Assembly (NCBI GenBank): GCA_003141195.1
Contig: PLLC01000104.1
Coordinates: 1 to 50,566 of the forward strand
DNA: 50,566 nucleotides
Reading direction: 5' to 3'
Source: Syntrophaceae bacterium
Lineage (GTDB): Bacteria > Desulfobacterota > Syntrophia > Syntrophales > UBA5619
The notes beneath the pieces were generated by a model that was given only the letters and a program-made list of their open reading frames with translations, did no database searches and was not told the DNA's origin. Shown piece after piece: positions 14,971 through 41,304 of the stretch (position 1 is its first letter; the number at the start of each line of letters is the position of its first letter). The position numbers and the translations under genes are program-made.

Positions 14971-16083
14971 ATGATTACAGGGATTCTGAAGGAGATCAAG
15001 ACCGAGGAAAACCGTGTCTCCATGACGCCGACCGGCGTCGAGGTGATGAAGACCCATGGTCATACGGTCCTTGTCGAGAAAAACGCGGGGGTCGGGAGCG
15101 GCTTCGAAGATAAGGCCTATGCGGCTGCCGGCGCGGAGATCGTCAAGACCGCGAAGGAAATCTATGACCGCTCCGACATGGTGATGCATGTCAAGGAGCC
15201 GATGCCATCCGAATACGGCATGATCCGCAAGGATCAGATCGTTTTCACCTACCTCCATCTGGCCGCGAATGAGGCACTGACGAAGGCAATGATTGCAACC
15301 CAGTCCATCGATATCGCCTATGAGACGATCCAGAAGGCGGACGGGTCGCTTCCCCTGCTCATCCCCATGAGCGAGGTCGCGGGCCGGATGGCGATCCAGG
15401 AGGGCGCGAAGTACCTGGAGATGGAATACGGTGGAGAGGGTGTCCTCCTCGGCGGCGTCCCCGGTGTTGAAGCGGCGACGGTGCTGGTCATCGGCGCGGG
15501 AACGGTCGGCGCCCAGGCTGCAAAGATGGCGTGCGGGCTCGGCGCCAAGGTGTATGTGGTCGATTCCGACCTGCCGAGACTCCGTTATCTCAATGACGTC
15601 ATGCCGCAGAACTGCTTTACGCTGATCTCCTCCCCGGCGACGATCCGCAGGCTGATCCGGGAGGCGGATCTCGTCATCGGTTCTGTCCTTATTCCCGGCG
15701 CGAAGGCCCCCAAGCTCGTCACGCGCGACATGCTCAAGACCATGAAGAAGGGCGCTGTCATGGTGGACGTGGCCATCGATCAGGGCGGTTGCTTTGAAAC
15801 ATCGAAGGCCACGACGCACAAGGATCCGATCTATACGATCGACGGCATCATCCATTACAGTGTAGGAAACATGCCGGGCGCCGTGGCGAAAACCTCCACG
15901 CTGGCCCTGACGAACGCCACTCTCCCGTACGCGGTCGAGATCGCGGACAAGGGCTGGAAAAAGGCGATGAAGGAAAATCCCGAAATCAAAAAGGGCGCCA
16001 ATGTGATCCAGGGTCAGATCACCTTCAAAGGCGTGGCCGATGCCTTCGGCATGAAACTCACGTCGGTGGACAAGCTTCTGTAG
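14971..16083 (+). CDS. ald: Alanine dehydrogenase
   Basis: 370 residues. NAD-dependent oxidative deamination of L-alanine to pyruvate and ammonia, or the reverse. Family signature at the start (GILKEIKTEENRVSMTP), substrate-binding FTYLHLAANE, the dinucleotide motif VLVIGAGTVGAQAA, and the C-terminal IDGIIHYSVGNMPGAVAKTS. The start is preceded by CAGGGGGAC. In this setting it most likely recycles alanine formed by a pyruvate-dependent transaminase, as in taurine catabolism. It has its own promoter of the shared type and is convergent with the ABC transporter operon. Confidence 0.95.
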   Translation: MITGILKEIKTEENRVSMTPTGVEVMKTHGHTVLVEKNAGVGSGFEDKAYAAAGAEIVKTAKEIYDRSDMVMHVKEPMPSEYGMIRKDQIVFTYLHLAANEALTKAMIATQSIDIAYETIQKADGSLPLLIPMSEVAGRMAIQEGAKYLEMEYGGEGVLLGGVPGVEAATVLVIGAGTVGAQAAKMACGLGAKVYVVDSDLPRLRYLNDVMPQNCFTLISSPATIRRLIREADLVIGSVLIPGAKAPKLVTRDMLKTMKKGAVMVDVAIDQGGCFETSKATTHKDPIYTIDGIIHYSVGNMPGAVAKTSTLALTNATLPYAVEIADKGWKKAMKENPEIKKGANVIQGQITFKGVADAFGMKLTSVDKLL

Positions 16084-16214: not shown

Positions 16215-17342
16215 TTACTTCTTTTTCAGAAGATGGACGCTCCGAGGGATCTCGACCTCAACCCTGTCGGCATGTTGGAATTGCTGCGCATCCCGCGGGT
16301 TGTACTGGTCGATGATCATGGTCCTGTCACCGATCGTCACCGTACATTTTGCAATCGATCCTGCATACATATAGGATTTCAATGCGCCGCAGAGAACATT
16401 CTGACTTTTATCTCCGCAGTCCAGCGAGAGGGAAACGCTCTCCGGTCTGATGACCATGAGAACGTCATCGCCGGTTTTGACATCGTCCTGTTCGAGCGTA
16501 ATCTCCAGCCTGCCATATTCCGTATTGACCACGGTGTTGCATGTGGTTTCATCGATCGATTCGATCCGACCCTCCATGAAATTGACGTAGCCCACGAATC
16601 CCGCGATGAACTCATTCGCCGGCCGCTCGTAGATCTCGATCGGCGTGCCGACCTGCTCGATCAGGCCATCCTTCATGACGACCAGGCGGTCGGAAATCGC
16701 CATTGCCTCAAACTGATCGTGCGTCACGAAGACCGTCGTAATGTGCAGCCTTTCCTGGAGTTTGCGGATCTCTTCGCGCATGACGAGTCTCAGGTTCGCA
16801 TCGAGGTTGGAGAGGGGTTCGTCGAGCAGCAGGACCTTCGGTTCGAGGCTGAGCGCCCGCGCGAAGGCTACGCGCTGCTGCTGACCGCCGGAGAGCTTGT
16901 CGATCATCCGGTCTCCGAATGTGTCCAATTCGACCATCTCGAGCAGTTCCCTGACCCTCGCAGCGGTCTTGTCCTTGGGCCACTTGTTGATCTTTAATCC
17001 GTATCCGACGTTTTCCGCCACGGTCATATGGGGAAAGAGAGCGTAGTTCTGAAAGCAGATCCTCGTATCCCGGAGGTTTGGGGGAAGGTCGTTGATCCGC
17101 TGGCCGTCGAGGATGATGTCCCCCGCGCTGATATCGGTGAAGCCGCCGATCAGTCTCAGAAGAGTCGTCTTGCCACAGCCGCTGGGTCCGACAAACGTAA
17201 CCAGCTCTCCCCTTCTGACCTCCAGCGATACGCCTTTGAGCACCTCGTTGTTTCCATAAAATTTGTGGATATCCTTCAAAATCAACATCGGTTTTTCGTT
17301 TTCTTTCCTGTCCATATCCCCAGTGACCCCTTTCGTTGTCAT
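16215..17342 (-). CDS. ABC transporter ATP-binding protein (Fe3+/2-aminoethylphosphonate/polyamine type)
   Basis: 375 residues. Walker A GPSGCGKTT, Q-loop ICFQNYALFPHMTV, signature LSGGQQQR, Walker B VLLLDEPLSNLD, H-loop VTHDQ. After residue 240 comes a TOBE-like regulatory domain (VMVIRPESVSL). The family is the FbpC/PotA/PhnT group (CUT1-like importers). ATG 17342 overlaps the permease stop by four bases (ATGA); an internal ATG nine codons later also has a purine-rich leader. Substrate is inferred only from neighbours. Confidence 0.9.
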   Translation of the reverse strand: MTTKGVTGDMDRKENEKPMLILKDIHKFYGNNEVLKGVSLEVRRGELVTFVGPSGCGKTTLLRLIGGFTDISAGDIILDGQRINDLPPNLRDTRICFQNYALFPHMTVAENVGYGLKINKWPKDKTAARVRELLEMVELDTFGDRMIDKLSGGQQQRVAFARALSLEPKVLLLDEPLSNLDANLRLVMREEIRKLQERLHITTVFVTHDQFEAMAISDRLVVMKDGLIEQVGTPIEIYERPANEFIAGFVGYVNFMEGRIESIDETTCNTVVNTEYGRLEITLEQDDVKTGDDVLMVIRPESVSLSLDCGDKSQNVLCGALKSYMYAGSIAKCTVTIGDRTMIIDQYNPRDAQQFQHADRVEVEIPRSVHLLKKK

Positions 17343-19033
17343 ACTGCCGCCGACTTTTTCATGCTGCTGCCCAGCCTGGTTTTATTGCTGATGAAATTCA
17401 GGATCAGCATACAGATCATGACGATCAGGACCAGTTTCATCGTCGTGGCGGAGGCGATGCCGATTTCACCATATACGGCGGCGTCGAAGATCTTTACCGC
17501 AGCCAGATCGAATCCCGGACTGACGAGGAAGACGACGGCGCTCAAGGAGACGATCGCCGTCATGAAGGTATAGATGAACCCCGCAATGAAGGCGGGAAAC
17601 ATGATCGGCAGAACGATCTTGTAGAAGGTGGTCAGGAAGCTGGCGCCCAGGTCCGCGGAGGCCTCCTCGATCTCGATATGGATCTGATGCAGTTTGCTGA
17701 TCCCCGCTTCCACGCCGACGGCAAGGAAACGGAAGACGCAGTTCAAGGCCAGGATCATGATCCCGCCTGTCAGTTTAAGCGGCGGGGCGCTGAAGGCAAG
17801 CAGATAACCAATGCCGAGGACCGTCCCGGGAAGGGCGAATCCGGAGAGGGAAACCATCTCAATGAACGTGCGGCCGAAGAATTTCCCCCGGACGATCACG
17901 TATGCCAGCAGGACGCCGATGATGGCGCCGATGACGGCCGCCACGAAACTCACGCGGATGCTGTTGTATATCGCCTGATTGGATGTGAAATCCAGATAGT
18001 TGGACAGAACGATGTTGTGGGTGACCCCGAGGATCTTGTAAAAGGAGGCCGCAAATACCACGGCGAAACAGACGAAGATCGCGCCGGCGGCGACCGTGGT
18101 GATGATCATGAACGGCACCTGGATCAGCGGGGTGATCTTCCTCGGCTCCGAAGCAACCGGTTTTCCGCCAATCGTGGTGAACTGCTTTCCCTCCAGCAGA
18201 TAATTGTGAATGAAGAAGATCAGGATGCAGGGGGCGATCATAACGACCGAGAGGACGCTTCCCATGTTGAAATCGGACTCCCCGGTGATCATCGTGTAGG
18301 TGTCCGGGGCCAGGAAGGGGGTTCGGCCGCCCAGGATGGCGGCGTTGCCGAACTCGGCGATCGTCATGACGAAGATCAGGAGCGCCGCCTTGAGAAGCCC
18401 CGGCGCCAGAAGCGGGATGGTGATCGTCCGGAGGATGGTCGCCTCCGACGCCCCCATGTCATAGGCGCTCTCTTCGAGATTAGGGTTGAGCGACATCAAT
18501 GTGTTTTCGATCATCATGTAGGCGAGCGGGATGAAGGCCAGCGTCTGGGAGATGACGACGCCGCCGAAGCCGTAAAGCTGCCAGTGGAGGTCGAACATCT
18601 TGGTAATAAGTCCGTTACGGCCGAACAGGATGATGAGCGAAAGGGCAAACAGGTATGGCGGGGCGATCAATGGAACGAGGGAGATGATCTTCAGCGGTTT
18701 TCTCAGGATCCAGGGTCCCCGCGTCGTCATGTAGGCGAGACAGAAACCGATGACGAGGCAGACCACGGTATTGATCACCCCGAGGAGAAGCGTGTTGTAC
18801 AGGGACTGATAATAGTAATTTTTACTGAAAAAATTCTGATAATATTGCAGCGTGAATCCCGACGGTCCCCGGAAGCTCTTCAGGAGAACCGCGATGATGG
18901 GGTAGAGGAGAAAGAAGGCAAGCAGCAGGAATAAAAATGCGGCCAGGATGTTGATCAGGTTTGCATTCAGGAAATCCTTTATCTTGCTTCCACTGCTCGC
19001 CTGCAGTTTCAAAGACAATTCTACTGTCGCCAT
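17339..19033 (-). CDS. ABC transporter permease, two fused membrane domains
   Basis: 564 residues with about twelve hydrophobic helices and two EAA loops (ESAYDMGASEATILRTITIP and EASADLGASFLTTFYKIVLP). The fused layout is that of FbpB and of the predicted 2-aminoethylphosphonate permeases (PhnU2/AepW). ATG 19033 has GGAGGAG five bases upstream, better than an ATG eight codons earlier. It forms an inner-membrane importer with the ATPase and the binding protein. Confidence 0.9.
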   Translation of the reverse strand: MATVELSLKLQASSGSKIKDFLNANLINILAAFLFLLLAFFLLYPIIAVLLKSFRGPSGFTLQYYQNFFSKNYYYQSLYNTLLLGVINTVVCLVIGFCLAYMTTRGPWILRKPLKIISLVPLIAPPYLFALSLIILFGRNGLITKMFDLHWQLYGFGGVVISQTLAFIPLAYMMIENTLMSLNPNLEESAYDMGASEATILRTITIPLLAPGLLKAALLIFVMTIAEFGNAAILGGRTPFLAPDTYTMITGESDFNMGSVLSVVMIAPCILIFFIHNYLLEGKQFTTIGGKPVASEPRKITPLIQVPFMIITTVAAGAIFVCFAVVFAASFYKILGVTHNIVLSNYLDFTSNQAIYNSIRVSFVAAVIGAIIGVLLAYVIVRGKFFGRTFIEMVSLSGFALPGTVLGIGYLLAFSAPPLKLTGGIMILALNCVFRFLAVGVEAGISKLHQIHIEIEEASADLGASFLTTFYKIVLPIMFPAFIAGFIYTFMTAIVSLSAVVFLVSPGFDLAAVKIFDAAVYGEIGIASATTMKLVLIVMICMLILNFISNKTRLGSSMKKSAAV

Positions 19034-19069
19034 CTTTCTCCTCCGGGAGACGCCCATGATCGAACAAGC

Positions 19070-20062
19070 TTATTTGAAATCGGTTCTCAACTTCTGCTTC
19101 CAGATATCGTTGTTCTTCGCTTTGTCGTCTGACGCCTTGCCCAGATCCAGTTTGATGTATTTGGGCAGGGTCTTTCCATAGAGGGCGTTCGGCGCCGGCC
19201 GGGGTGTCACATAACCGATGGCCGCCATGAGTTCGCTGAATTCGGGGGTGCCCAGCAGGTCGATGATCTTTTTGCAGGCGTCGAGTTTCTTCGTTCCCTT
19301 GAGGATCAGGGCGAAGGTGCCGTCATAGCCGGTCCCTTCCTTGGGAATGGTCCAGATCAGCGGATAGCCGTCATCGAGGCGCTTCTTGACGTTCTCGTCC
19401 GAGGTGAGGCCCAGCATGAATTCACCCCTGCCGACGAGATCCGTCGGGGCATTGCCGCTGCGGGTGTAATACGCGATGTTCTTGTCCAGGGCTTCGAGAA
19501 ATTTCCAACCTTCATCGTCCCCGTAGAGGGCCAGGAAGGAGAACCGCATCTGGTTCGCCGTACCCGAACTCAGCGGAGAGGGCATGAGGATCTCACCCTT
19601 CCATTTCGGATCCAGCAGGTCCTTCCAGCTCGTGGGCATGGCGTAGCCGGCCTTGGCCAGGCGGTCCTTGTTGCCGACCAGGACGAAGGAGAAGTTGGAG
19701 AAGTTGTACCAGTTGCCCTGCGGGTCCAAAAATACTTCCGGCACACCCTTCCAGGCCGGGGAGACATAGGGAACGGTCCAGCCGCTCTTCTTGGCGAGGA
19801 AGCCCGTGGACGAGCCGCAGCCGATGGTCATGTCCGCGTTAAAATTCGGGGCCTCGGCCTTCATGCGGGCTTCGATTTCTCCGAAGGACTGGAAGGTCTG
19901 GTTGACGGTGATGCCTGTTTTATCCTTGATGAACTGGGCGATCTTGGCATTGTTGTCGGGAGAGGTGCCCATGTAGGCGTTGATCTCTTCCGCCATGGCA
20001 CTGCCGGCGAGCAGGACCGAGAAGATCGCTGCGACTACGAATGCGATTAACTTTCTTTTCAT
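19070..20062 (-). CDS. ABC transporter periplasmic substrate-binding protein
   Basis: 330 residues with a Sec signal peptide (KRK then a hydrophobic run, cleavage after SAMA). Mature sequence has the type 2 binding-protein pattern of the Fe3+/AEP/spermidine family: INAYMGTSPDNNAKI, then PTSWKDLLDPKWKGEILMP, SSGTANQMRF, and TIPKEGTGYDGTFALILKG. Iron-binding members normally have a pair of adjacent Tyr; I do not see that here, which argues for an organic substrate. First gene of a three-gene operon under the promoter at 20301-20365. Confidence 0.9.
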   Translation of the reverse strand: MKRKLIAFVVAAIFSVLLAGSAMAEEINAYMGTSPDNNAKIAQFIKDKTGITVNQTFQSFGEIEARMKAEAPNFNADMTIGCGSSTGFLAKKSGWTVPYVSPAWKGVPEVFLDPQGNWYNFSNFSFVLVGNKDRLAKAGYAMPTSWKDLLDPKWKGEILMPSPLSSGTANQMRFSFLALYGDDEGWKFLEALDKNIAYYTRSGNAPTDLVGRGEFMLGLTSDENVKKRLDDGYPLIWTIPKEGTGYDGTFALILKGTKKLDACKKIIDLLGTPEFSELMAAIGYVTPRPAPNALYGKTLPKYIKLDLGKASDDKAKNNDIWKQKLRTDFK

Positions 20063-20432: not shown

Positions 20433-21188
20433 TTAAAAATATTGAGACTGGGTGATCGTCTCACCCGGTTGCAGATGGAGAAATTCCTCGGTTTTGTAAG
20501 GACCGCGGATGATTTTCTCAAAGTAGGAAAGATTCCCCTCAATCTCGATATAGGTCATATTGAGAAACTCCGCATTTTCAAGCGCCCGACGGCGCAGCGC
20601 CTCGCTTTCGGGCATTCCCGAGTTGATCAGGGCAATATGGGTAAAGTTTTTCAAACTCTCCCTGATCGCCCAGAGGGCCACTTTCTTCCCATACCTGGGC
20701 AGATACTCCACCTGGTAGGTACCCAGGGGATCATTGTTATGCTTCACCCACCCCGGTGTGAGATAAAAGGTCCCTGGATGATCGCGGAAGACCGCATCAT
20801 ACCGTGCCGGCGAACCCAGAAAAAGGGAAATGCAGTCATGACAGCGGGGAACAATCAGTTTCTGGCGACGCGCCGTGACCCCGACCAAGCCGTTGGAACA
20901 AAGACCGTAACCCAGAACAATGACAGTCGCATAGGACGCCGCCTGATCGATTCGCTCCTGGATGATCTCGGGAAGCTTTTTCGGCGTCCGATGCAGTCCC
21001 TGTTCAAGATAGATGATCTCAACCGCCTGAGAGCCGGCGCGCGCAGCCTCGAGCTCAGGTTCCATTACCCGGCAGGCAATAATCACCGGTCTTTTTAGTG
21101 TCTGCAGATGTTTTATAGATTCCATACAAGACCGCCCCCGTAATTCATCGTCGAAGAGACGGGTCGCCCTTCTATAAACCTCCTCCAC
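20433..21188 (-). CDS. DUF1638 protein (corrinoid methyltransferase neighbour)
   Basis: 251 residues. DUF1638 features: IIACRVMEPEL, VIVLGYGLCSNGLVGV, PRCHDCISLFLGS and GTFYLTPGW, with conserved Cys in the second and third blocks that could bind metal or a cofactor. The biochemical role is unknown, but the family is often found beside mttB/mtmB-type methyltransferase genes. The start may be GTG 21188 (AAAGG upstream) or ATG 21125. Last gene of the methyltransferase operon. Confidence 0.8.
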   Translation of the reverse strand: MEEVYRRATRLFDDELRGRSCMESIKHLQTLKRPVIIACRVMEPELEAARAGSQAVEIIYLEQGLHRTPKKLPEIIQERIDQAASYATVIVLGYGLCSNGLVGVTARRQKLIVPRCHDCISLFLGSPARYDAVFRDHPGTFYLTPGWVKHNNDPLGTYQVEYLPRYGKKVALWAIRESLKNFTHIALINSGMPESEALRRRALENAEFLNMTYIEIEGNLSYFEKIIRGPYKTEEFLHLQPGETITQSQYF

Positions 21189-21269: not shown

Positions 21270-22823
21270 TCATCGTTCTTCAGGCTTCTGAATGCCGAAC
21301 CTTCCGGCCGAATGATCCCGCCCCAGATAGAAATTGATCCAGGAAGAGGTCTGATAGAAGTCCCAGTTGCAGGGCGCAACTGTGTAGGTGTCCAGATTTT
21401 CTTCCTCTCGGTAGTTCTTCAGGCGGGCATAGGCCTTCACATACACGCAGCGCCTTTTCCCGGGATAAACCTCGCACCAGCCCTCATAACTACCGCCGCA
21501 GGCCCCGTTGCGCTGGTTTTTCGGGCACTGGGACATGGGACAGATGTACGCCACATCGGTCAGGGCGCAATCACCGCAATCCCGGCAGTCGTACAGGAGA
21601 ACCTTGGCCAAATGCTCCAGTTTGTGAAAGGTTTTCTCCCCGGCGGTACCATCCACGACCCGAGAAAACGAGCGCATGAAACCGAAAAGATTCCGGCCCG
21701 GTTCGAACATCAGTTGATGGAAAATCCGGGACAAACGGTAGACAAAGCCGACCGGGGCATCCAACGGTCTATTTTCCCGACGGACCGGCGTTTCCCGGTT
21801 CAGACCGGTTGCCTCGTCCTGCTCATAGAGGTAGAATCCTCCGGGTTGCGGGTAATCAAACTCGCGCACCAGCTCCTGCCAGTTCACGCTGAGTTCTTCA
21901 CCCTTCTCAATGATGAAAAGGACCTGTTCGTATTTCACGCCATGGCCGCCGATATGAACCCCGCTGAATCCCATCCCCTTCATGAAGGCGTACATCTTGG
22001 CCGCCCGGAGCAACCTAACTTCCACGCCTTTATCCGGAGACTGGCGCTCCCGGTCTAAATCCGCCAGGAGCTTGTCTGTGACGACACACCCGGGAATCTT
22101 GTTTTGGTTCATGAGTTTGCCTGCGCCGTACGGCAGGATGAAGATATTTCCCACCACCGGCACGTGCAGACCATTCTGGTCCATAAAGAGAATCAGTTCA
22201 TGGAATTTCCTGGCATCATAGCCGAGCTGCGTCACCACAAACCGCGCGCCGGCGGCGATTTTTTTCTTCAGCTTGAAATACTGGACTCTCTGCTCCGCTT
22301 CCATCGCCTTGAACGGCGATACGGCGACCCCGGCAAAGAAATTCGACGGCTGATTCCGAATAATCCCTTTCGGCCCCGGATAGGCCAATCCCCGGTTCAT
22401 CTCGCCGATCAGATGAAGCACATGGCCGGGATCAAGGTCAAAGACCGGCGACGGCCTTCCCTGAAACCCGGTCACGGGATAATCCCCCGTCATCACCAGC
22501 AGATTCCGCACCTGCGCCCTGTCCAGCGCATAGAGCTGGCTTTCAATCTGATTGCGGTTCCGGTCCTTGCAGGTGAAATGCACCAGCGGTTCCACTCCCA
22601 GCTTCAGAATCTCCTGGCCCAGACAGTCGGCCAGGATCGCAGGATTGCCGCCGGGATTGTCCGTAATCGTCACCGCATCGATCCGCCCCCCTTTCGCCGC
22701 CTGTTCCGCCGCCATGAGGGCGCCTTCCTGGAGCTTCTCCCGGGCGCCCCTGCCGGGAATCAACTCCCAGGTCACCGCCATTCTGTCCGGGTCCGTCAAG
22801 GACGTTTGAAAGCGATTTTCCAT
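21270..22823 (-). CDS. metF: Methylenetetrahydrofolate reductase fused to MTHFR C-terminal domain
   Basis: 517 residues. The first 290 form the MetF TIM barrel (VTWELIPGRG, DAVTITDNPGGNP, VHFTCKDRNRNQIES, LLVMTGDYP, FVVTQLGYD). The last 190 are the MTHFR_C/MetV-type domain with a dense Cys cluster (CRDCGDCALTDVAYICPMSQ and further Cys), expected to bind zinc or FeS. Such fusions occur in acetogens and anaerobic methyl-oxidisers, where the enzyme interconverts methyl- and methylene-THF. ATG 22823 has GGGGG five bases upstream and lies right after the stop of the folD remnant. Confidence 0.9.
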   Translation of the reverse strand: MENRFQTSLTDPDRMAVTWELIPGRGAREKLQEGALMAAEQAAKGGRIDAVTITDNPGGNPAILADCLGQEILKLGVEPLVHFTCKDRNRNQIESQLYALDRAQVRNLLVMTGDYPVTGFQGRPSPVFDLDPGHVLHLIGEMNRGLAYPGPKGIIRNQPSNFFAGVAVSPFKAMEAEQRVQYFKLKKKIAAGARFVVTQLGYDARKFHELILFMDQNGLHVPVVGNIFILPYGAGKLMNQNKIPGCVVTDKLLADLDRERQSPDKGVEVRLLRAAKMYAFMKGMGFSGVHIGGHGVKYEQVLFIIEKGEELSVNWQELVREFDYPQPGGFYLYEQDEATGLNRETPVRRENRPLDAPVGFVYRLSRIFHQLMFEPGRNLFGFMRSFSRVVDGTAGEKTFHKLEHLAKVLLYDCRDCGDCALTDVAYICPMSQCPKNQRNGACGGSYEGWCEVYPGKRRCVYVKAYARLKNYREEENLDTYTVAPCNWDFYQTSSWINFYLGRDHSAGRFGIQKPEER

Positions 22824-22824
22824 T

Positions 22825-22984
22825 TCATCCCCCATATGACCTGATCCCTGCGGACGGTTTCGCCGCTTTTACGGTATTCATCATCAGCATGGCAATCGTG
22901 ATCGGAGCCACCCCGCTGGGAACCGGCGTGATCGGGACAGCCTTCTCTTTCACGCCGCCGGTCTTTACCCCGGAGCGGAAATAC
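22825..22984 (-). pseudogene. folD C-terminal remnant
   Basis: About 50 codons in frame encode the typical FolD end: KAVPITPVPSGVAPITIAML followed by MNTVKAA, ending at TGA (22827-22825) two bases before the metF start. Everything upstream of the last helix is gone. The break is at a single MITE-like end (AACAGGCTGCTAAAA, 22990-23004). A complete folD here would have supplied methylene-THF dehydrogenase/cyclohydrolase for methyl oxidation. Confidence 0.8.
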
Positions 22985-22998: not shown

Positions 22999-23796
22999 CT
23001 AAAATTCAAACTTTTTGGCACGGTGGGCCTTCATGAAATTCATGCAGAAATTATCCCGTCCGGCCAACGCTTCCGCTGCGATGATGTTGGCCATCATCCG
23101 TTTGTCCAGGGGATTGATGATGGCGCCGTCCAGACCCAGTGCGACGGCCATGGACATGAAGGTCTGATTCACGAAGGGCCTGCCTGGCAATCCATAGGAT
23201 ACATTGGAAAGACCGCACATGGCGTGCACGCCGACGAATTTTTCCTTGATCAGCGCAATCGCCTTGAGAAATTCAATGCCGAACGTCCTGTCCACGGAAA
23301 TCGGCTGCACCAGGGGATCCACATAAATATTCTCCAGCGGAATCCGGTTCTGCACAAGCCCGTTGATCAGCTTATCGGCAACCCGCAGCCGATCTTCCGC
23401 TGTCTTGGGCATCCCTTCATCACTCATGCACAGGGCCACAATCCGGCAATCCGTTCCGGCAAGCAACGGAATCATCTTGTTATACCGGTCGGACTCCAGA
23501 GAAATGGAATTGATCATGGGCGTCCCCTGATGCACCGAAAGACCGGCCTCGATGGCCTTGGGATTCGGAGTGTCGATGGAACAGGGACCTTCCACGACGG
23601 CCTGCACCGTCTGGACAAGCCAGCGGATATAATCCTCTTCCTCCTCCAGAAAGATCCCTGCATTGACATCAATATAGTGTGCGCCGGCTTCATGTTCCTG
23701 ACACGCCACCGCCTGAATCGCCTCGACATCCCTGTTCTTGATTGCCTCCGTGATCGCCTTGCGGCTGGCATTAATGAGCTCTCCTACAATGATCAT
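22999..23796 (-). CDS. Methyltetrahydrofolate:corrinoid methyltransferase (MtgA-like)
   Basis: 265 residues of the pterin-binding (DHPS-like) TIM barrel: IIVGELINASRKAITEAI at the start, YIDVNAG, SIDTPNPKAIEAGL, INSISLE and VHAMCGLSNVSYGLPGR. These match MtgA, AcsE and related enzymes that move a methyl group between a corrinoid protein and THF. Placed after the corrinoid protein gene in the operon, it should accept the methyl group taken by the MtmB-like enzyme. It ends with TAG inside a MITE-end-like sequence. 153 bases separate it from the corrinoid protein gene. Confidence 0.88.
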   Translation of the reverse strand: MIIVGELINASRKAITEAIKNRDVEAIQAVACQEHEAGAHYIDVNAGIFLEEEEDYIRWLVQTVQAVVEGPCSIDTPNPKAIEAGLSVHQGTPMINSISLESDRYNKMIPLLAGTDCRIVALCMSDEGMPKTAEDRLRVADKLINGLVQNRIPLENIYVDPLVQPISVDRTFGIEFLKAIALIKEKFVGVHAMCGLSNVSYGLPGRPFVNQTFMSMAVALGLDGAIINPLDKRMMANIIAAEALAGRDNFCMNFMKAHRAKKFEF

Positions 23797-23949: not shown

Positions 23950-24606
23950 TTACTTCTTTTTGGCCATCAAGCCCTTCACAAGCGCTACGGCATCGATGGC
24001 AGACTTGCCGTATCCATCGGCGCCGATCCTATCGGCCCACTCCGGATTGACGGGTCCGCCGCCGATAATGACAAAATATTTCTGACGGATACCCATCTCC
24101 TTGAGCGTATCGATGACTTCCTTCTGGGCCGGCATCGTGGTGGTCATCACCGAGGAAAGGGCGATCACGTCCGCCTGGATTTTCTCTGCTTGCTGAATGA
24201 TGTTCAGAGAGGGGTTGTCCACACCCATATCCACCACGTCAAAACCGCTGGTATCCAGCACGGAGGCCACAATGTCTTTACCGATCGAATGCACGTCGCC
24301 TTTGACCGTCCCGATCAGGACCTTGCCCAACTTGACGAGCTGCTTCTTCTGAGCCTCAATCTCCGGTTTCAGAACGGCCATGGCCGCGTTGAAGCTGGCG
24401 GCCGCCATGAGCAATTCCGGCAAATAGGCCTCCCCACGCTCAAATCTACCGCCAATGATTTCCATCCCTTTCGACAAACCCTGCTCAATGGCTTCGAGGG
24501 GATCGATTTTGTTCGCCACCACAGCCTGGGCGAGCACCTTCGCCTCGTCCTCCGTTCCATCCATGACTACCGCCGCCAATTTTTCCAAAATCTGATTTTT
24601 ATCCAT
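23950..24606 (-). CDS. Corrinoid protein (MtmC/MttC-like)
   Basis: 218 residues. N-terminal four-helix cap (residues 1-90, with the ERGEAYLPELLMAA block) followed by a B12-binding Rossmann domain: GDVHSIGKDIV with the cobalt-ligating His in DxHxxG, then SSVMTTTMP and IIGGGPV. It carries the methyl group as methylcobamide between the methyltransferase and the MtgA-like enzyme. Only 17 bases downstream of mtmB. No RamA-type reactivator is encoded in the window, so reactivation must come from elsewhere. Confidence 0.93.
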   Translation of the reverse strand: MDKNQILEKLAAVVMDGTEDEAKVLAQAVVANKIDPLEAIEQGLSKGMEIIGGRFERGEAYLPELLMAAASFNAAMAVLKPEIEAQKKQLVKLGKVLIGTVKGDVHSIGKDIVASVLDTSGFDVVDMGVDNPSLNIIQQAEKIQADVIALSSVMTTTMPAQKEVIDTLKEMGIRQKYFVIIGGGPVNPEWADRIGADGYGKSAIDAVALVKGLMAKKK

Positions 24607-24623: not shown

Positions 24624-25997
24624 CTACGCAAATGATGTACCCATCCCGGACAGCTCTTCCTTCACCTCCTTCACCAGACGTACATAAGCTTCAGACGGCT
24701 TGCCTGTAGTCACATTGTAACAATCCTGATAACGGTCTCCCGACGGGGCCTTGTCGATCTGGGACTCGTATTTTTCGAGAAGTTTCTTCACCAGATGATT
24801 GGCCTGTTGCCGGTCACATTTGGCTGCTGCCTTGGCCATATCGACACCGAACTGGCACTCCATCGGGGTGAATCCGTCAATCTTGACCGCTTTGGCCGAA
24901 TGAGGCGTCTGTACCGACGGGGCGCCGGAAGCCGTGGCGGCAAGCAGCCAGGCAGCCGACTCATAAAAATACATCTTTGTGTTGGGACCGCCGGCCATGT
25001 AACCCAGCCAGATCACCGGCATGGGAACATTGCGGCTTGCAGCCTGACAGCTCGCGGAAACTACCCAAAGGACATCGCGGGTGGTGGAGCAGCCATATTT
25101 GAAATGAACGGGAAAATGGAGCTGATAACTCCCTTTGAGGGCCAAGATGCCGATCATAATATAGGCCGTGCTGACGATGGCCGTGCCGGCCGGACCGCCG
25201 CAATAGCCGCCCAGAATGGGGGCTGTCTCGGCGCCCACATTGGCGCCCCAGTTAAGCAGATAGGCGATTTTGTTCATGGTCCCATATTCCAGTTTATTCT
25301 CGGCAACGGTCCCGCAGAGCCAGCCGTCGGTGGGACGGAGTCCGAACTGGGGAGCGCTGGCAGCGATCGTCGTAACCGCGGACGCGGCCGTCGCAACGAG
25401 GTTGCAGATGGGCAGCCCCGGCCGGCCGGCCCGGATCAGGGCATCGCGACCGATCTTCACGCTCCGGATGGCCGCGTAAAGCTCCACCGGAGACCCGGCC
25501 GCCACGGGAATCCCCCGAATGCTGTCCAAAGCCGGAATGCTGATGGAGTCCACCTCTGGAATCGACGCATAGGCCTCGATTTTGTTCGTGATCATCTCTT
25601 CCGTCGTCGACACGATCCCGGAACCCACATGCAACCAGGGAATCTTCTGATCATCGGGTTTTCGCATGCCGAATACCTTGGCATCCTTGCCCTCCCCCAG
25701 ATGACACTGGCCGGGCGCCTTGGCAATACCATCGAGGATTTCTTCTTTTGTGAACTGAATCAGACGATTCGTGTCCTGACAGTAAATACCCACGGACGCC
25801 AGAAATTCAAGAGCGGCTTGGAAAAGATTGTCCGCCGCCTGGTCATCGCAGGGAACGGGGTTTTCCCTGTCATACTGGATGCCGTACTTTCGAACCAGTT
25901 CATTGAGCTTAGGCATGAAGACCTTCATGTCAAAGTCCCTTTCGCTCATGATCGGTCCATGGATCGCCTTTTCACAGATATCCAAAAAATTCGTCAT
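24624..25997 (-). CDS. Non-pyrrolysine MtmB-family methylamine:corrinoid methyltransferase
   Basis: 457 residues, almost the exact length of archaeal MtmB (458). Similarity to MtmB as I recall it runs end to end: KYGIQYD, LASVGIYCQDTNRLIQFT, AGRPGLPIC, ILGGYCGGPAGTAIV, FPVHFKYGCSTTRD and the C-terminal APSGDRYQDCYNVTTGKP. In MtmB the pyrrolysine sits in AGRPGMGV-Pyl; here the aligned residue is Cys198 (TGC, 25406-25404) and the frame has no TAG. It is therefore not MttB-like and not a Pyl enzyme. The substrate is unknown: an N-methyl amine or amino acid is expected from the fold. ATG 25997 follows GGGGGGAG. First intact gene of the operon. Confidence 0.85.
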   Translation of the reverse strand: MTNFLDICEKAIHGPIMSERDFDMKVFMPKLNELVRKYGIQYDRENPVPCDDQAADNLFQAALEFLASVGIYCQDTNRLIQFTKEEILDGIAKAPGQCHLGEGKDAKVFGMRKPDDQKIPWLHVGSGIVSTTEEMITNKIEAYASIPEVDSISIPALDSIRGIPVAAGSPVELYAAIRSVKIGRDALIRAGRPGLPICNLVATAASAVTTIAASAPQFGLRPTDGWLCGTVAENKLEYGTMNKIAYLLNWGANVGAETAPILGGYCGGPAGTAIVSTAYIMIGILALKGSYQLHFPVHFKYGCSTTRDVLWVVSASCQAASRNVPMPVIWLGYMAGGPNTKMYFYESAAWLLAATASGAPSVQTPHSAKAVKIDGFTPMECQFGVDMAKAAAKCDRQQANHLVKKLLEKYESQIDKAPSGDRYQDCYNVTTGKPSEAYVRLVKEVKEELSGMGTSFA

Positions 25998-26507: not shown

Positions 26508-27899
26508 TCAGTAATTCGAGCCCCGCTCCACCTCGCCGATCGCCTCCTCGATCACATCGAGGGCCCCATCCATCTCCTCCTGCGTGATCACGAGGGCCGG
26601 CCGGAGGGTGATCATGTTGCCGTCGATCGTCTTGAAGGCCACACCCTTTTCCATGCACTTGAACAGGATCATCTCCGCCTCCCGGGTCGCCTTCTCCTTG
26701 GTTTTCCGGTCCCGGACGAGGTCGATGCCGATGTGGAGTCCGATCCCCATGACGCAGCCGATGAGGGGATGCCGGTCCGCCATCCCGTGCAGGCGTTCCA
26801 GCGCATGGACGCCCAGGCGCGCCGCATGGTCGCAGAGGTTCCCCTTCTCGATCACCTCAATCGCGGCCAGACCGGCCGCCGCCGCCAAGGCATTCTTTTC
26901 GTGGGTGTAATGGCCAATGGAGCGGTCTCCGCAGGTGTTGTACTCCTCCCGGGTCACAATCCCCGCCAGCGGGACAATCCCGCCGCCGAGCGATTTGCCA
27001 AGGACCAGGATGTCCGGCGTCAGATAATGTTCGCTCGCGAACATCTTTCCCGTCCGCCCGAAGCCTTCAATAATCTCATCGAAGATCAGCAGCGCTCCGT
27101 ACTGGCGGCACAAATCCCGGACCCCTTCCCAGTACCTTTTACTGGGGATGACGGGGTTCGCGGAGACCGGCTCCCCGATCACCGCCGCCATTTCCGGCTC
27201 GCGCCGCAGGACCAGTTCGATCTGCCGGAGACATTCGGCATCGACGTCGTCCGGGTTCGTGAACCCCCAGGGATTGCGGTAATAATTGGGGAATTCCACA
27301 TGATACGCCCCGGGAACGAGCGGGCCGATGCCGCCGTGAAAGTGCTCCTCGCCCCCCACGCCCGCTGCCCCGAAACCGGCCCCGTGGAAGGAATCCCAAA
27401 ACGAGATCGTCTTGAAACGGCCGGTCACCAGTTTCGCCAGCTTCAGGGCCATCTCGATCGCGTCCGTCCCCCCCGGGCAGAAGAGGGTTCGACAGAGGTC
27501 GCCGGGGGTGATCTCCGCCAGTTTCTTTGCCAGTCGGACGGCCGGGATGTTCGTATAGCGGCGGGGGCAGAAGGTGAGCGATTCGTCTAACTGTCTCCGG
27601 ACCGCCTGGACCACTTCGGGATGGTTGAAGCCGGTGTTGTGCACCCCATTGCCGTGCATGTCGATGTACTTCCGGCCCGCCAGGTCTTCGATATAGATGC
27701 CCTGTGCATGGGCGATCACATTGAGGACGGGGGTGGAGAGGCTTTGATGGAGAAAATACCTCGCATCCTCCTCGAACCAGCCCCGCGCCTTGCCGGACAG
27801 GTTCCGCTCCCAGTACCTCTGTCGCTCCGGCGTGGTGTTGACATCCCCCTGTTCCGTTTCTGTCTGTCCGCCCTGCCTTCCGAACCCCTGTTTTGCCAT
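26508..27899 (-). CDS. Class III PLP enzyme (aminotransferase or ammonia-lyase), copy 1
   Basis: 463 residues. Fold-type I class III aminotransferase family: YIDMHGNGVHNTGFNHPEV, CPGGTDAIEMALKLAK, SFWDSFHGAGFG, LIFDEIIEGFGRTGKMF, and the PLP Lys302 in LGKSLGGG. The GHYTHEKNALA block is unlike ordinary class III transaminases (which have a TFGGNP-type block) and resembles PbfA-type (R)-1-hydroxy-2-aminoethylphosphonate ammonia-lyases and relatives. ATG 27899 follows GAGAGGGGGG; a start 25 codons earlier is possible. Divergent from a paralogue at 28137. Confidence 0.85.
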   Translation of the reverse strand: MAKQGFGRQGGQTETEQGDVNTTPERQRYWERNLSGKARGWFEEDARYFLHQSLSTPVLNVIAHAQGIYIEDLAGRKYIDMHGNGVHNTGFNHPEVVQAVRRQLDESLTFCPRRYTNIPAVRLAKKLAEITPGDLCRTLFCPGGTDAIEMALKLAKLVTGRFKTISFWDSFHGAGFGAAGVGGEEHFHGGIGPLVPGAYHVEFPNYYRNPWGFTNPDDVDAECLRQIELVLRREPEMAAVIGEPVSANPVIPSKRYWEGVRDLCRQYGALLIFDEIIEGFGRTGKMFASEHYLTPDILVLGKSLGGGIVPLAGIVTREEYNTCGDRSIGHYTHEKNALAAAAGLAAIEVIEKGNLCDHAARLGVHALERLHGMADRHPLIGCVMGIGLHIGIDLVRDRKTKEKATREAEMILFKCMEKGVAFKTIDGNMITLRPALVITQEEMDGALDVIEEAIGEVERGSNY

Positions 27900-28136
27900 G
27901 CTGACCCCCCTCTCGATTCCTCCAGCCGCACCCCGAAAAAGGCGGTTCAAACCCAGACCGGTTGCCTTACCCATACCACTTTTTACTGAATTTTCTTATG
28001 GATTATCCCTGTGGAAGAGGTCCGGATCAAGGGAAAAAAAGTGATTGAACCCATGACAAAAGAAGATTTGACTTCACCGGGGTGGGGATGTTACGGAAAA
28101 CAGGTAGAATTTCATTCCGGAGGGAGGACAGAAGGC
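27900..28136. promoter_or_regulatory. Divergent intergenic region between two PLP enzyme genes
   Basis: 237 bp that must drive both genes. It contains GGATAATCCATAAG (minus strand, 28008-27995), sharing the half-site GGATAATC with the LysR-type boxes at 20351 and 32314, but the second half is not conserved. No good -35/-10 pair was found. Confidence 0.35.
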
Positions 28137-29495
28137 ATGGGAAAACTTCACCGATCGGAAGGCGATATCAATATTTCCCCGCGCCGGCAGAAGTGGCAGG
28201 AGGAAAACCTGGATGAAGAGACGCGGGCGCTCCTCGCGGAGGACGAAAAATACTTCCTCAAACAGTCCCTTTCCACCCCCTGCCTGAACGCCATGCGCGC
28301 CTGCGACGGGATCTGGATCGAAGACCTCCAGGGCAGGCGGTACATGGATTTCCACGGGAACAACGTCCATCAGGTCGGCTTCGCCAACCCAGCGGTCATC
28401 ACCGCAATCAAGGAACAGTTGGACCGGCTCCCCTTCTGCACCCGGCGCTATACGAACCGGGTCGCCGTCGATCTCGCAAAAAAGCTCACCGAGGTCGCCC
28501 CGGGGGACTTGAACCGTGTCCTCTTCTGTCCCGGCGGGGCCGAGGCGATCGGCATGGCCCTGAAGCTCGCCCGAATCGCGACCGGTCGCCACAAGACGAT
28601 CTCCATGTGGGATTCGTTTCACGGGGCCTCCCTGGACGCGATCTCGATCGGCGGCGAGGCGATCTTCCGGCAGGACATGGGCCCGCTGCTGCCCGGAACG
28701 GAACATGTGCCGCCACCCGACGAATACCGCTGCATCTACGAATGCCGCGGCCGCGGGGGCTGCGACATGATGTGCGCCCGTTACGTGGAATACGTTCTGG
28801 AGAAGGAAGGGGATATCGCCGCGGTGATCGCCGAACCGATCCGGAGCACCCCCTACATCCCGAAGCCCGAATACTGGCAGATCATCCGGAAGGCCTGTGA
28901 CCGTCACGGGGCGCTCCTCATCTTCGACGAGATCCCCCACGCTCTCGGCCGGACGGGCCGGATGTTCACCTGTGAGAATTTTGACGTGGTCCCCGACATG
29001 CTGGTCATCGGCAAGGGGCTGGGCGGCGGCGTCCTGCCCCTTGCGGCCCTGATCGCCCGGGAGGGCCTCGACGTCGCGGGTAACCGCGCCCTGGGCCACT
29101 ACACCCACGAAAAGAGCCCCGTCGCCTGCGCCGCGGCGCTGGCCACAATCCGTTTCATCGAGGAAAACCGCCTGGCGGAACATGCCCGGGAACTCGGGCA
29201 GCACGCCCTCGGGCGGATGGCGGGGATGATGGAACGTCATCCGCTGATCGGCGACGTCCGCGGCCTGGGGCTCTTTTTAGGGATTGAACTGGTCAAGGAT
29301 CGGACGACCGGCGAGCGGGCGACGGAGGAAGCGGAGGCGGTGATGTACGCCGCCCTCAGCCGAGGGCTCAGTTTCAAGCTCACGATGGGGAATATCCTCA
29401 CGCTGACGCCGGCCCTGACGATCACCCGGGAGGAGATGGACCAGGCGCTGGACATCATCGAGGCGTGTTTGACGAAGGTCGAACAGGGCGCCTGA
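28137..29495 (+). CDS. Class III PLP enzyme (PbfA-like), copy 2
   Basis: 452 residues. YMDFHGNNVHQVGFANPAV, LPFCTRRYTNRVAVDLAKK, LFCPGGAEAIGMALKLAR, SMWDSFHGASLDAISIGGEA, PLLPGTEHVPPPDEYRC, LIFDEIPHALGRTGRMF, PLP Lys293 in IGKGLGGG, and GHYTHEKSPVACAAAL. To my recollection these blocks are those of the PbfA family, which eliminates ammonia from hydroxy-aminoethylphosphonate, but relatives in other settings are uncharacterised. No phosphonatase gene is present. An insertion with four Cys (CIYECRGRGGCDMMC) near residue 200 is absent from copy 1. ATG 28137 follows GGAGGGAGGACAGAAGG. Confidence 0.85.
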   Translation: MGKLHRSEGDINISPRRQKWQEENLDEETRALLAEDEKYFLKQSLSTPCLNAMRACDGIWIEDLQGRRYMDFHGNNVHQVGFANPAVITAIKEQLDRLPFCTRRYTNRVAVDLAKKLTEVAPGDLNRVLFCPGGAEAIGMALKLARIATGRHKTISMWDSFHGASLDAISIGGEAIFRQDMGPLLPGTEHVPPPDEYRCIYECRGRGGCDMMCARYVEYVLEKEGDIAAVIAEPIRSTPYIPKPEYWQIIRKACDRHGALLIFDEIPHALGRTGRMFTCENFDVVPDMLVIGKGLGGGVLPLAALIAREGLDVAGNRALGHYTHEKSPVACAAALATIRFIEENRLAEHARELGQHALGRMAGMMERHPLIGDVRGLGLFLGIELVKDRTTGERATEEAEAVMYAALSRGLSFKLTMGNILTLTPALTITREEMDQALDIIEACLTKVEQGA

Positions 29496-29721: not shown

Positions 29722-29937
29722 CTACCCGATGATGATCATCACCTGTTCCGTCTCGACACTGTCGTTGGCCTTGACCTTGATCTCCTTTACGGTCCCGCCG
29801 GCGGGGGCGTAAATCGGATTTTCCATCTTCATGGCCTCGAGCATGACGACCTCATCGTCTTCCTTCACCTGATCGCCGATCTTGACCAGAACTTCCAGGA
29901 TCTTCCCCGGCATCGGGGCTTTCACCTCTACACTCAT
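29722..29937 (-). CDS. Stand-alone biotinyl (or lipoyl) carrier protein
   Basis: 71 residues covering just the swinging-arm domain: VKAPMPGKILEVLVKIGDQV, then VVMLEAMKMENPIYAPAGG with the modified Lys in EAMKMEN, the biotin-type motif. Such small carriers serve acyl-CoA carboxylases or decarboxylases, but no carboxylase subunit is in the window. ATG 29937 has GGAGGT upstream. Monocistronic between its own promoter candidate and terminator. Confidence 0.9.
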   Translation of the reverse strand: MSVEVKAPMPGKILEVLVKIGDQVKEDDEVVMLEAMKMENPIYAPAGGTVKEIKVKANDSVETEQVMIIIG

Positions 29938-30087
29938 TCCCTTTACCTCCGTAGTATGATGAACTTTTTTAACTTCCTTGCAGCTTCCGTCCCGCTGCAA
30001 GCCGCTCTTCCTCTACAATCGATCACCGGGATGAAGTTTCCCCCGCGGACGATGAGTCTGGTCCTGAAACGGCATAAGAAGGCTCCC

Positions 30088-32254: not shown

Positions 32255-32328
32255 TTGACAAACGTTTAAAGATCGGCTTAGATTCGGACAAGCTAATTAA
32301 TTTCACCCCATGGATAATCAAAGGTTAT
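32255..32328 (+). promoter_or_regulatory. Promoter and putative autoregulatory box of the LysR gene
   Basis: TTGACA (32255-32260), 17-bp spacer, TTAGAT (32278-32283). Downstream, ATAATCAAAGGTTAT (32314-32328) overlaps both the Shine-Dalgarno (AAAGG) and the ATG (32327). It differs by one base from the box of the ABC transporter promoter, so a regulator bound here could block its own transcription or translation start region. Confidence 0.65.
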
Positions 32329-33232
32329 GAATCTAAATCAACTGAAGGTTTTCTACCTTACGGCAAAGCACGGCAGCCTGAGCGCCGCCGCGGAGTCCCT
32401 CTACATCACCCAGCCCGCCGTCACAAAAGGCATCCAGCGTCTCCAGGAGCACTACGAGATCAAGCTCTTCAACCGCTTCGGGAAGAAGATGGCCCTGACG
32501 GACGCGGGGGAGGTCCTCTACGGGATCGCCGAATCGATCTTCGAGATGGAGAACCAGGCGGAGGAGAGCCTCCGGGATTTCCAGCAGCGGAAGCGGGGTT
32601 TCATCCGGATCCTCTCGAGCGAGAGTTTTGGCGCCTACTATCTCCCCTTCATCCTCGACCGTTTCAGCCGGGTGAATCCCAAGGTCCGGGTGTCGATGGA
32701 AATCCTGCCGACGGAACTGATCGTGGAAAAGACCGCGACGCTCGCCAACGACATCGGCTTCATCTCCTATTCCGTCCCCCACAAGAAACTCGTCGCGCGG
32801 GAAATCCTGGAGGACAGCTACCAGATCATCGTCCCCCCGGGACACCCCTTCGCGGCGAAATCGTTCATTGAGCCGGAGGATCTTGCAGGACACTCCCTCA
32901 TCGTCCATGAAAAAGGATCGGCGCCCCGCCGAAGCACCGAGGAGTACATCCGGAGACACAACATCAGCGTCTCCATCCCCCTGGAATTGTCCAACAACGA
33001 GGCTGTCAAGACCGCCGTGGAGGAGGGACTGGGCGTCGCCGTCATCACGCGGCGGGTCGTCAGCAAGGAAATCGGAATGGGAAGCCTCAAGGCGATTCCC
33101 CTCTCCGATCCGGCCATGACGCGGAAATTCTACCTGATCCACCATAAGGACAAATACATCTCCCGGTCCCTCCAGAGCCTGATCGACATGGTCGATCAGT
33201 GGGTCGAGGAATACCGCCTTGGGCTCCATTGA
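32327..33232 (+). CDS. LysR-family transcriptional regulator
   Basis: 301 residues. N-terminal winged helix-turn-helix: MNLNQLKVFYLTAKHGSLSA, then AESLYITQPAVTKGIQRLQE and LFNRFGKKMALTDAGE. The remaining 210 residues form the type 2 periplasmic-binding-like effector domain (FIRILSSESFGAYYLPFIL and following). It is the only regulator in the catabolic region and its start overlaps a copy of the shared box, so it is the best candidate to control ald, the importer and the citrate-synthase-like operon. The effector is unknown. Confidence 0.93.
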   Translation: MNLNQLKVFYLTAKHGSLSAAAESLYITQPAVTKGIQRLQEHYEIKLFNRFGKKMALTDAGEVLYGIAESIFEMENQAEESLRDFQQRKRGFIRILSSESFGAYYLPFILDRFSRVNPKVRVSMEILPTELIVEKTATLANDIGFISYSVPHKKLVAREILEDSYQIIVPPGHPFAAKSFIEPEDLAGHSLIVHEKGSAPRRSTEEYIRRHNISVSIPLELSNNEAVKTAVEEGLGVAVITRRVVSKEIGMGSLKAIPLSDPAMTRKFYLIHHKDKYISRSLQSLIDMVDQWVEEYRLGLH

Positions 33233-39654: not shown

Positions 39655-39667
39655 GTGATTTCCATCC

Positions 39668-39707
39668 ATAAAACAAAGGACGGCCGCCCTTTCGCCGGCG
39701 GCCGTCC
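39668..39707 (-). terminator. Strong terminator after the aldehyde dehydrogenase gene
   Basis: An 11-bp perfect stem (39678-39688 with 39697-39707, GGACGGCCGCC) with an 8-base loop. On the minus strand it is followed by TTTGTTTT. It ends the citrate-synthase-like/aldehyde dehydrogenase operon. Confidence 0.85.
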
Positions 39708-39764
39708 ACAACATCCGTTCCCAGACGTTCTGCAAAGGGGGATCAGAAAATGGAGATCAGAACA

Positions 39765-41153
39765 TTAACTCTTACCATACTTCTTCAGATAGCTGCCGAA
39801 GAGCACATCATCCGACGGTTGGTAATCCGCAATCGGTGTCGCAACGCGCGTGTACATGATGAACTGCCGCCAGTTGATGTTCTCGCAGCTGATGTTTCCA
39901 GCCCACGTCCCGCAACCCAGCGTGTCTGTGAACCCCAGGCAGCTTGTCCACCCGCCGCTGTTCGCTTCCGTATGCCCCATGTTGCAGACAATACGGCTGA
40001 CGTTCGCACGAAGACCAATCTTGTGAATCCGCTCGTCGATCTTCGTCTGGATGTTCACCGAATGGCCCTCGCCCGAAAATTTCAAAATCTTTTCCATGCG
40101 GTCGAGCATCTCGTCAAAATCCGTCCACTTCCAGACCGTCAGAACCGGCGAAAGCTTCTCGCCCGAAAACCGGTCTTCACGACCGATCTTCTCGCCCATG
40201 ACCATCAGGATTTTCGTATCCCGGGGAACCTTCAGACCGGCCAATTCCGCGATATAGACGGCTGATTTCGCCACGATGTCCCGATTGAGCGTGTGACCGT
40301 CCGGCCACATCGTCTTTCTCAGGATCTCGCGCTCCTCGGTGCTGCACATATAACCGCCCTCGGCCTTGAGGGCCGCAATCATCTTGTCGAAGATGCACTC
40401 TTCAATCGCAATGGCGTTCTCCGAAGAACACGATGCCGCATTGTTGGCAATCTTCGATTTCTTGAGCTTGGCCGCCACCGTCGGAATATCAACCGTCGAA
40501 TCCACGATGGAGATGACGTTTCCGGCGCCCACCGTCTGCGCCGGAACTCCCGCCGCATAAACAACCTTCACCAGCGCCGCGCCGCCCGTGGCTACCGCGT
40601 AATCGCAGTTTGCCATCAACTCCTGCGTCTTCTCATTGCTGGTGTGACGAATGCACTGAACCAGATCCACCGGCGCGCCTACCTTCACCAGCGCCTTCCG
40701 GATGTGTTCCACCGTCGTGTAGGTGGCAAGCTCCGTACGGGGGTGCGGCGAACAGATGATCGCATTGCGCGTCTTCAACGTGCCCAGAGCGATGCAACAG
40801 ACCGTCGATTCAGGGTTCGTACACGGAACCACGTTCGCAATCACCCCGATCGGCTTCGCATACGTCCGGATCCCCTTCGCCTTGTCCTCGCTCACCAGAC
40901 CACACGTCTTGACACCAATCTGATCGAAGAGCGTACCGCGGACCTTCGTCCCGATCTTGTGAACCTTGTCTTCATAGACGCCGATCCCCGATCCCTCGAC
41001 GGCCAGACGGGCCAGCTCCTCAGCCGTCTCCTTTTTCTGAAGTTCCCAGCCTACCGCCAGCACCATCTCATTGACCTTCTCCTGCGGCCAGAACTCGACG
41101 ATCTTAAACGCCGCCCTCGCCTTCTCGTACATTTCACGAATATTGTCTTCCAT
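39765..41153 (-). CDS. Acylating (CoA-dependent) aldehyde dehydrogenase
   Basis: 462 residues. Family of PduP/EutE/SauS enzymes that turn an aldehyde, CoA and NAD(P) into acyl-CoA. Seen: ANVVPCTNPESTVCCIALGT, RNAIICSPHPRT, VATGGAALVKVVYAAG, GAGNVISIVDSTVD, the catalytic Cys in NNAASCSSENAIA, and the C-terminal GTWAGNISCENINWRQFI. The overall look, with the ending PSDDVLFGSYLKKYG, suggests a SauS-type sulfoacetaldehyde dehydrogenase relative, but this is not certain. ATG 41153 follows GGGAGAG. Last gene of an operon with two citrate-synthase-like genes. Confidence 0.9.
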   Translation of the reverse strand: MEDNIREMYEKARAAFKIVEFWPQEKVNEMVLAVGWELQKKETAEELARLAVEGSGIGVYEDKVHKIGTKVRGTLFDQIGVKTCGLVSEDKAKGIRTYAKPIGVIANVVPCTNPESTVCCIALGTLKTRNAIICSPHPRTELATYTTVEHIRKALVKVGAPVDLVQCIRHTSNEKTQELMANCDYAVATGGAALVKVVYAAGVPAQTVGAGNVISIVDSTVDIPTVAAKLKKSKIANNAASCSSENAIAIEECIFDKMIAALKAEGGYMCSTEEREILRKTMWPDGHTLNRDIVAKSAVYIAELAGLKVPRDTKILMVMGEKIGREDRFSGEKLSPVLTVWKWTDFDEMLDRMEKILKFSGEGHSVNIQTKIDERIHKIGLRANVSRIVCNMGHTEANSGGWTSCLGFTDTLGCGTWAGNISCENINWRQFIMYTRVATPIADYQPSDDVLFGSYLKKYGKS

Positions 41154-41304
41154 ATTCAAAATCTCTCCCTTCAATTCTATTGCTTAGGATCCATTTTATC
41201 CATGATCCGCCTGCAAAAACCCTCATACCCGCCCGGAAGATTCGAGGCCGTCCCTCCCTTCCCGCGGAGGATAGAAACTTTTCAGGACCTTACCCCTTCT
41301 CCCA

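Follow-up and report, generated by a model that had tools for sequence, protein, structure and literature searches.

A pyrrolysine-free MtmB-family methyltransferase gene in a Syntrophaceae genome, its corrinoid operon and its phosphonate-type neighbours

The window analysed here is the whole 50,566-nucleotide stretch of contig PLLC01000104.1 from a Syntrophaceae bacterium, and our interest is in a genuine minus-strand open reading frame which begins with an ATG at 25997, ends at 24624 and encodes 457 amino acids (the plus-strand reading of the same coordinates contains no MtmB). Downstream of this gene, referred to here as mtmB, lie genes for a corrinoid protein, a methyltetrahydrofolate:corrinoid methyltransferase (MeTr), a methylenetetrahydrofolate reductase (MTHFR) and a DUF1638 protein, followed by an ABC transporter, and upstream lie two PbfA-like genes, the second of them divergent (Table 1). 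The corrinoid protein gene starts 17 bases after mtmB, whereas 510 bases separate mtmB from the nearer PbfA-like gene, and co-transcription of those two is therefore uncertain.

Table 1. Genes and features of the window discussed in the text, with scores given as bits found / cut-off where the match falls below it.
Feature	Coordinates	Strand	Evidence
MtmB-family methyltransferase lacking pyrrolysine, 457 aa, C198 at the Pyl202 position	24624..25997	-	PF05369 313.8 bits; fold Z 56.4 to 1NTH; residues
Cognate corrinoid protein, DVHSIG motif	23950..24606	-	B12-binding domains; pyl_corrinoid TIGR02370 205/215 bits
Methyltetrahydrofolate:corrinoid methyltransferase, MtgA/MeTr type	22999..23796	-	NF005719 340 bits, cut-off 259
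Methylenetetrahydrofolate reductase, DUF5981 C-terminal domain	21270..22835	-	PF02219 + PF12225
DUF1638 protein	20433..21188	-	PF07796 147 bits
ABC substrate-binding protein, PhnS2-like, below cut-off	19070..20062	-	TIGR03261 158/393 bits; 70% identical in L072
ABC permease, PhnU2-like, below cut-off	17339..19057	-	TIGR03262 290/593 bits
ABC ATPase, PotA/PhnT2-like, below cut-off	16215..17342	-	TIGR03265 371/458 bits
First PbfA-like class III PLP enzyme, lying upstream of mtmB	26508..27974	-	NF049939 655 bits, cut-off 525
Second PbfA-like class III PLP enzyme, divergently oriented	28011..29495	+	NF049939 723 bits, cut-off 525
LysR-type regulator, common to orthologous loci (57–59%)	32327..33232	+	homology
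CoA-acylating aldehyde dehydrogenase, SauS-like below cut-off; presumed link to the system	39765..41174	-	NF047625 484/600 bits
EamA transporter, phn_DUF6-like below cut-off; presumed link to the system	43443..44315	-	TIGR03340 162/288 bits
Alanine dehydrogenase; link to the system only possible	14971..16083	+	TIGR00518 494 bits, cut-off 392

Archaea demethylate methylamine with MtmB, an enzyme containing pyrrolysine (Pyl), the 22nd amino acid. The only Pfam family found in the window protein is MtmB (PF05369, cut-off 25 bits), with residues 5–453 aligned to positions 4–449 of the model (446 of its 450 positions), and NCBIfam returned no match. A phmmer search of the PDB retrieved MtmB1 (1L2Q, E 5.6e-58), in which C198 lies opposite Pyl202 in an alignment that is ungapped from AGRPG to the site, and the protein is 31% identical to Methanosarcina barkeri MtmB. 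The AlphaFold2 model, for which 26 relatives were used (pLDDT 94.4, pTM 0.93), superimposes on M. barkeri MtmB (1NTH) at 1.6 Å over 453 residues with Z 56.4, against only Z 23–24 for MttB and MtgB. The MtmB assignment is thus not a chance match and bears out the first-pass annotation, which had recognised by eye a full-length MtmB homologue with AGRPG before the Pyl site. Membership of the MttB family was rejected on the much weaker fold match and on the lack of any MttB match in Pfam or NCBIfam, and nothing in the alignment displaces Cys198 from the Pyl position.

Codon 198 is TGC and the gene has no in-frame TAG, in agreement with the Cys and the lack of an amber codon which that annotation had stated. 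No PylS turned up in the window's genome (best match 30 bits, cut-off 178), whereas the same search gave 330–342 bits for PylS in three relatives (G534, G279 and G355). G355 also has an MtmB gene with an internal TAG, so the search is able to pick up genes of this kind; a missed amber codon or overlooked Pyl machinery in the window's genome was considered and rejected, as neither was found. We note that L006 (1501–2313) and L021 (G355:C233) show a Pyl-type MtmB with an internal TAG and the frame split into two pieces, at 53–63% to M. barkeri and from a bacterium of the window's phylum which has PylS.

Relatives were gathered by PF05369 searches of 395 genomes from the phylum, 155 from the order and a further two phyla, since a scan of genome contigs had given four close relatives, and these searches yielded about 50 distinct proteins. 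The resulting tree places the window protein in a clade of seven members (SH-aLRT 100) which extends beyond the window's phylum, with submitters' titles naming Thermodesulfobacteriota, Spirochaetota and Chloroflexota. Two or three tandem MtmB-like paralogues, from this clade and its sister clade, are found at L071, L073, L074 and L075 (Chloroflexota, Spirochaetota and Desulfobacterales MAGs), and at L073 and L074 MttB-like genes lie beside them.

Within the clade the residues opposite Pyl202 are C, M, M, M, M, L and M, so that the six orthologues of the window protein (62–75% identity, from several phyla) have Met in five cases and Leu in one. Across 56 non-Pyl rows, a count which includes the window protein and retains near-identical rows, the column holds eleven residue types (L 13, M 11, G 7, V 6, I 6, T 4, H 3, C 2, N 2, Y 1 and A 1). 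On this alignment the site is an ordinary pocket position with Met or Leu as the default, and the Cys is a private change of the window protein. A chemical role for Cys198 is unlikely because the residue is not conserved, and we rejected a catalytic Cys on the same ground; the earlier suggestion that the Cys itself carries meaning is not sustained. The accompanying suggestion of a different substrate fares better, and a substrate other than that of MtmB is probable given that Pyl is missing from a full-length homologue. With an ordinary residue in the Pyl site, the substrate would have to position its own methylated nitrogen rather than be presented by Pyl.

The pocket has changed in other ways as well. 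Where MtmB has H228, E229, N332 and T223, the clade has W226, L227, W330 and R221 respectively, while it keeps E257 (MtmB E259) and Y333 (MtmB Y335); in the window protein MtmB E229 and Q333 are both Leu. E229, E259 and Q333 are the residues which we take to surround Pyl in MtmB. C303 is conserved in the clade, and W330 and E257 separate it from the sister clade, which has small residues and Thr or Ala at these positions. Judged by residue type, an acidic side chain together with aromatics would suit a cationic methylated nitrogen.

The operon combines a corrinoid protein with a DxHxxG motif and a tetrahydrofolate (THF):corrinoid methyltransferase, and DUF1638 has been tied, along with RamA-like proteins, to the reactivation of cobalamin (corrinoid) (PMC5764234, PMC12478193). 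On this gene content mtmB very probably encodes the first methyltransferase of a THF-linked, Pyl-free and corrinoid-dependent N-demethylase.

Others among the neighbours are of the kind found in phosphonate clusters. PbfA, a phosphonate lyase, forms phosphonoacetaldehyde from (R)-1-hydroxy-2-aminoethylphosphonate and is described as highly specific (PMC8154272), and both PbfA-like genes of the window score above the cut-off for this model. The transporter genes fall short of the PhnS2, PhnU2 and PhnT2 cut-offs that would mark them as an aminoethylphosphonate (AEP) transporter, and the aldehyde dehydrogenase, which is 61% identical to those in L072 and L114, scores best with the sulfoacetaldehyde enzyme SauS but below its cut-off. 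PhnX, a PhnX-like HAD protein and the C–P lyase PhnJ were not found in the window's genome, which is 96% complete. A HAD gene at 47735–48457 was rejected as a phosphonatase, being an ordinary TIGR02253-type match. Another at 38938–39735 (minus strand) is flanked by the genes for the aldehyde dehydrogenase and the acyl-CoA ligase, has DFGQT in place of DxDxT and no evident PhnX cap lysine, and could be an unusual hydrolase. Next to the SauS-like dehydrogenase the window also contains a pair of neighbouring citryl-CoA-lyase/citrate-synthase-like genes (41305–43247, minus strand), a 46% relative of which adjoins the SauS-like dehydrogenase in L114, as well as a 1015-residue open reading frame with no Pfam match (33263–36310, plus strand) and a 92-residue biotinyl/lipoyl carrier-like protein that stands alone (29722–30000, minus strand).

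Comparison with other genomes indicates what the PbfA model means in this phylum. It exceeded its cut-off in just three of the 395 phylum genomes, the window's and two of a single genus, and in the latter two PbfA is preceded by a homologous ABC transporter and by a true PhnX, which scores 323 and 322 bits against a cut-off of 220; within the phylum the PbfA model therefore marks phosphonate clusters. At L126, one of these two, the transporter exceeds the PhnS2 and PhnU2 cut-offs (452 and 692 bits) and is followed by an EamA gene. A PbfA-like gene (719 bits) also occurs near the 72% identical MtmB of L073, a Chloroflexota MAG. At the orthologous loci L072 and L070 (MtmB 75% and 70% identical) a class III transaminase of another subfamily stands next to a HAD protein which in the PDB matches phosphonoacetaldehyde hydrolase best (E 1.9e-16); the lysine of its MGTNK motif lies opposite the PhnX Schiff-base lysine in the alignment, and DxAGT reads as DLSGT. 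The window and L072 have in common the transporter (64–74%), the LysR regulator (57%) and the CoA-acylating aldehyde dehydrogenase (61%), the SauS-like gene thus being present in L072 too.

An MtmB-family gene is present in five of the eight phylum genomes which have PbfA or the L072-type HAD, against 13 of 395 overall (hypergeometric 9e-7, a value that ignores relatedness), and in G355 and G374 the MtmB gene is on another contig and belongs to another clade. The transaminase, HAD and transporter recur in G237, where MtmB is absent, which would be expected if demethylation were an add-on widening the intake of a phosphonate pathway, and which also shows that one can occur apart from the other. 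Among the seven clade members, three have no phosphonate gene within the stretches examined. It should be noted that a saccharopine-dehydrogenase-like reductase is encoded at L071 (348–1511), L073 (10619–11776) and L115 (7630–8787), adjoins MtmB genes in two loci and occupies the slot after the transporter in G237; none was found in the window.

We infer from these observations a reaction, a direction, pocket roles and a substrate class. A methylated amine would bind in a pocket at the base of the MtmB barrel, with a plain residue (Met or Leu in the orthologues, Cys here), the aromatic W226, W330 and Y333, and E257 taking the place of Pyl. The methyl group would pass to the Co(I) of the adjacent corrinoid protein, which DUF1638 may help to keep active, and MeTr would move it to tetrahydrofolate and on through MTHFR. 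The demethylated primary amine would then be taken up by the neighbouring PbfA-type PLP enzymes, or in the orthologous loci by the class III transaminase and phosphonatase-like HAD. As the amine product would go to such enzymes, the likeliest class of substrate is N-methylated AEP (mono- to trimethyl-AEP or the 1-hydroxy forms), and N-methyl-2-aminoethylphosphonate, which the first-pass annotation had listed among its candidates, would fit the neighbourhood well. The MtmB fold, the folate and corrinoid genes in line and the two above-cut-off PbfA-like genes next to mtmB all argue for Pyl-independent, corrinoid-dependent N-demethylation feeding aminophosphonate catabolism, a reading to which we would give not quite an even chance as a whole. 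We propose the phosphonate class itself tentatively because no PhnX, PhnX-like HAD or PhnJ was found in the window's genome, the transporter is below the cut-offs, the dehydrogenase is SauS-like and three clade members show no phosphonate gene in the stretches examined.

The enzyme might instead be a quaternary-amine methyltransferase like MtqB, acting on choline, tetramethylammonium or another betaine, with an aromatic pocket holding the trimethylammonium head where the Pyl–ammonium adduct would sit and with the PLP and transporter genes as incidental neighbours. MtqB is itself a non-Pyl MtmB homologue with this activity and has aromatic and sulfur residues around its ligand (PMC13044021), and the clade has W226, W330, Y333 and the conserved C303, yet the transporter and PLP genes are common to phosphonate-type clusters and we consider this alternative unlikely. 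A similar standing is given to some other N-methylated amine or amino acid, such as a methylated β-alanine, whose amine product would be used by the class III PLP enzymes. These enzymes act on many ω-amines, the tandem paralogues of L073–L075 suggest varied substrates in the family and saccharopine-dehydrogenase-like reductases adjoin some of its members, but PbfA and the phosphonatase-like neighbours point to phosphonates and make this option improbable as well.

N-methylated taurine stays in play because the aldehyde dehydrogenase scores best with SauS. Demethylation would be followed by class III transamination, with recycling through alanine dehydrogenase, and by oxidation of sulfoacetaldehyde, in which the SauS-like dehydrogenase would form sulfoacetyl-CoA for release by an acyl-CoA ligase. 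The window does have the dehydrogenase, acetate–CoA ligase-like subunits and an alanine dehydrogenase, and L072 again has the SauS-like gene; against this, the PLP genes score as PbfA above the cut-off, SauS remains below its own and the orthologous loci have a phosphonatase-like HAD, so that the taurine route is quite unlikely. Least probable by far is that Cys198 takes over the role of Pyl and the enzyme demethylates methylamine itself: the position of C198, the full-length fold match and the retention of MtmB E259 as E257 would agree with this, but in the orthologues Met or Leu occupies this position, and MtmB E229 and Q333 are both Leu here.

Among characterised systems, M. barkeri MtmB (1NTH, 1L2Q) shares with the window protein its full-length family and fold, AGRPG, E259 and an adjacent corrinoid protein. 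In contrast, the window protein has Cys at 202 in place of Pyl, in a genome in which PylS was not found, and has Leu for E229 and Q333 and the added W226 and W330, and by gene content its system would send the methyl group to THF and not to coenzyme M (CoM). The first-pass annotation held that no substrate had been established for non-Pyl homologues of MtmB, which was true until recently, but in 2026 MtqB of Methanococcoides methylutens Q3c was found to demethylate tetramethylammonium and choline, a result described as the first function of a non-Pyl MtmB, and a tree of 1,061 MtmB sequences published with it consists in the majority of non-Pyl proteins of unknown function (PMC13044021). MtqB resembles the window protein in being a non-Pyl family member with its own corrinoid protein, but, compared by description only, it is archaeal and CoM-linked while the window protein has phosphonate-type neighbours. 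Another bacterial non-Pyl MtmB is strongly induced on dichloromethane (PMC9768040). The glycine betaine system MtgB–MtgC–MtgA of Desulfitobacterium is similar in having a non-Pyl first methyltransferase, a corrinoid protein and a THF methyltransferase in one operon, but MtgB belongs to the MttB family and the first enzyme here to the MtmB family (Z 23.7 against 56.4).

The likeness to hydrolytic AEP clusters with PbfA (PhnSTU2, PhnX, PbfA and EamA, as in L126) lies in PbfA above the cut-off and the homologous transporter and EamA genes, and at the orthologous mtmB loci in the transaminase and phosphonatase-like HAD; the difference is the PhnX that was not found in the window's genome. N-methylated AEPs are natural products, and elsewhere they are dealt with by FAD oxidoreductases or oxygenases and not by corrinoid enzymes: N-methyl-AEP is degraded by FAD oxidoreductases, and two iron-dependent oxygenases form the only route described in the same paper for trimethyl-AEP (PMC10590968). 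Our search of the open-access literature turned up no publication dealing with a corrinoid pathway for methylated phosphonates, nor a description of an oxygen-free route for demethylating N-methylated aminophosphonates.

The neighbourhood of mtmB offers a concrete and testable substrate class for one clade that spans several phyla, a proposal which is specific but not proven. It is possible, if somewhat doubtful, that the operon encodes an oxygen-free N-demethylase which opens mono-, di- and trimethyl-AEP (or their hydroxy forms) to use, with folate receiving the methyl groups and phosphonate catabolism the amine. Such an anaerobic corrinoid route to N-methylated AEP would, if true, be new; it would assign a role to a bacterial non-Pyl MtmB and connect methylotrophy with phosphorus cycling. 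The clade is relevant, too, to the question of how the MtmB fold gained or lost pyrrolysine.
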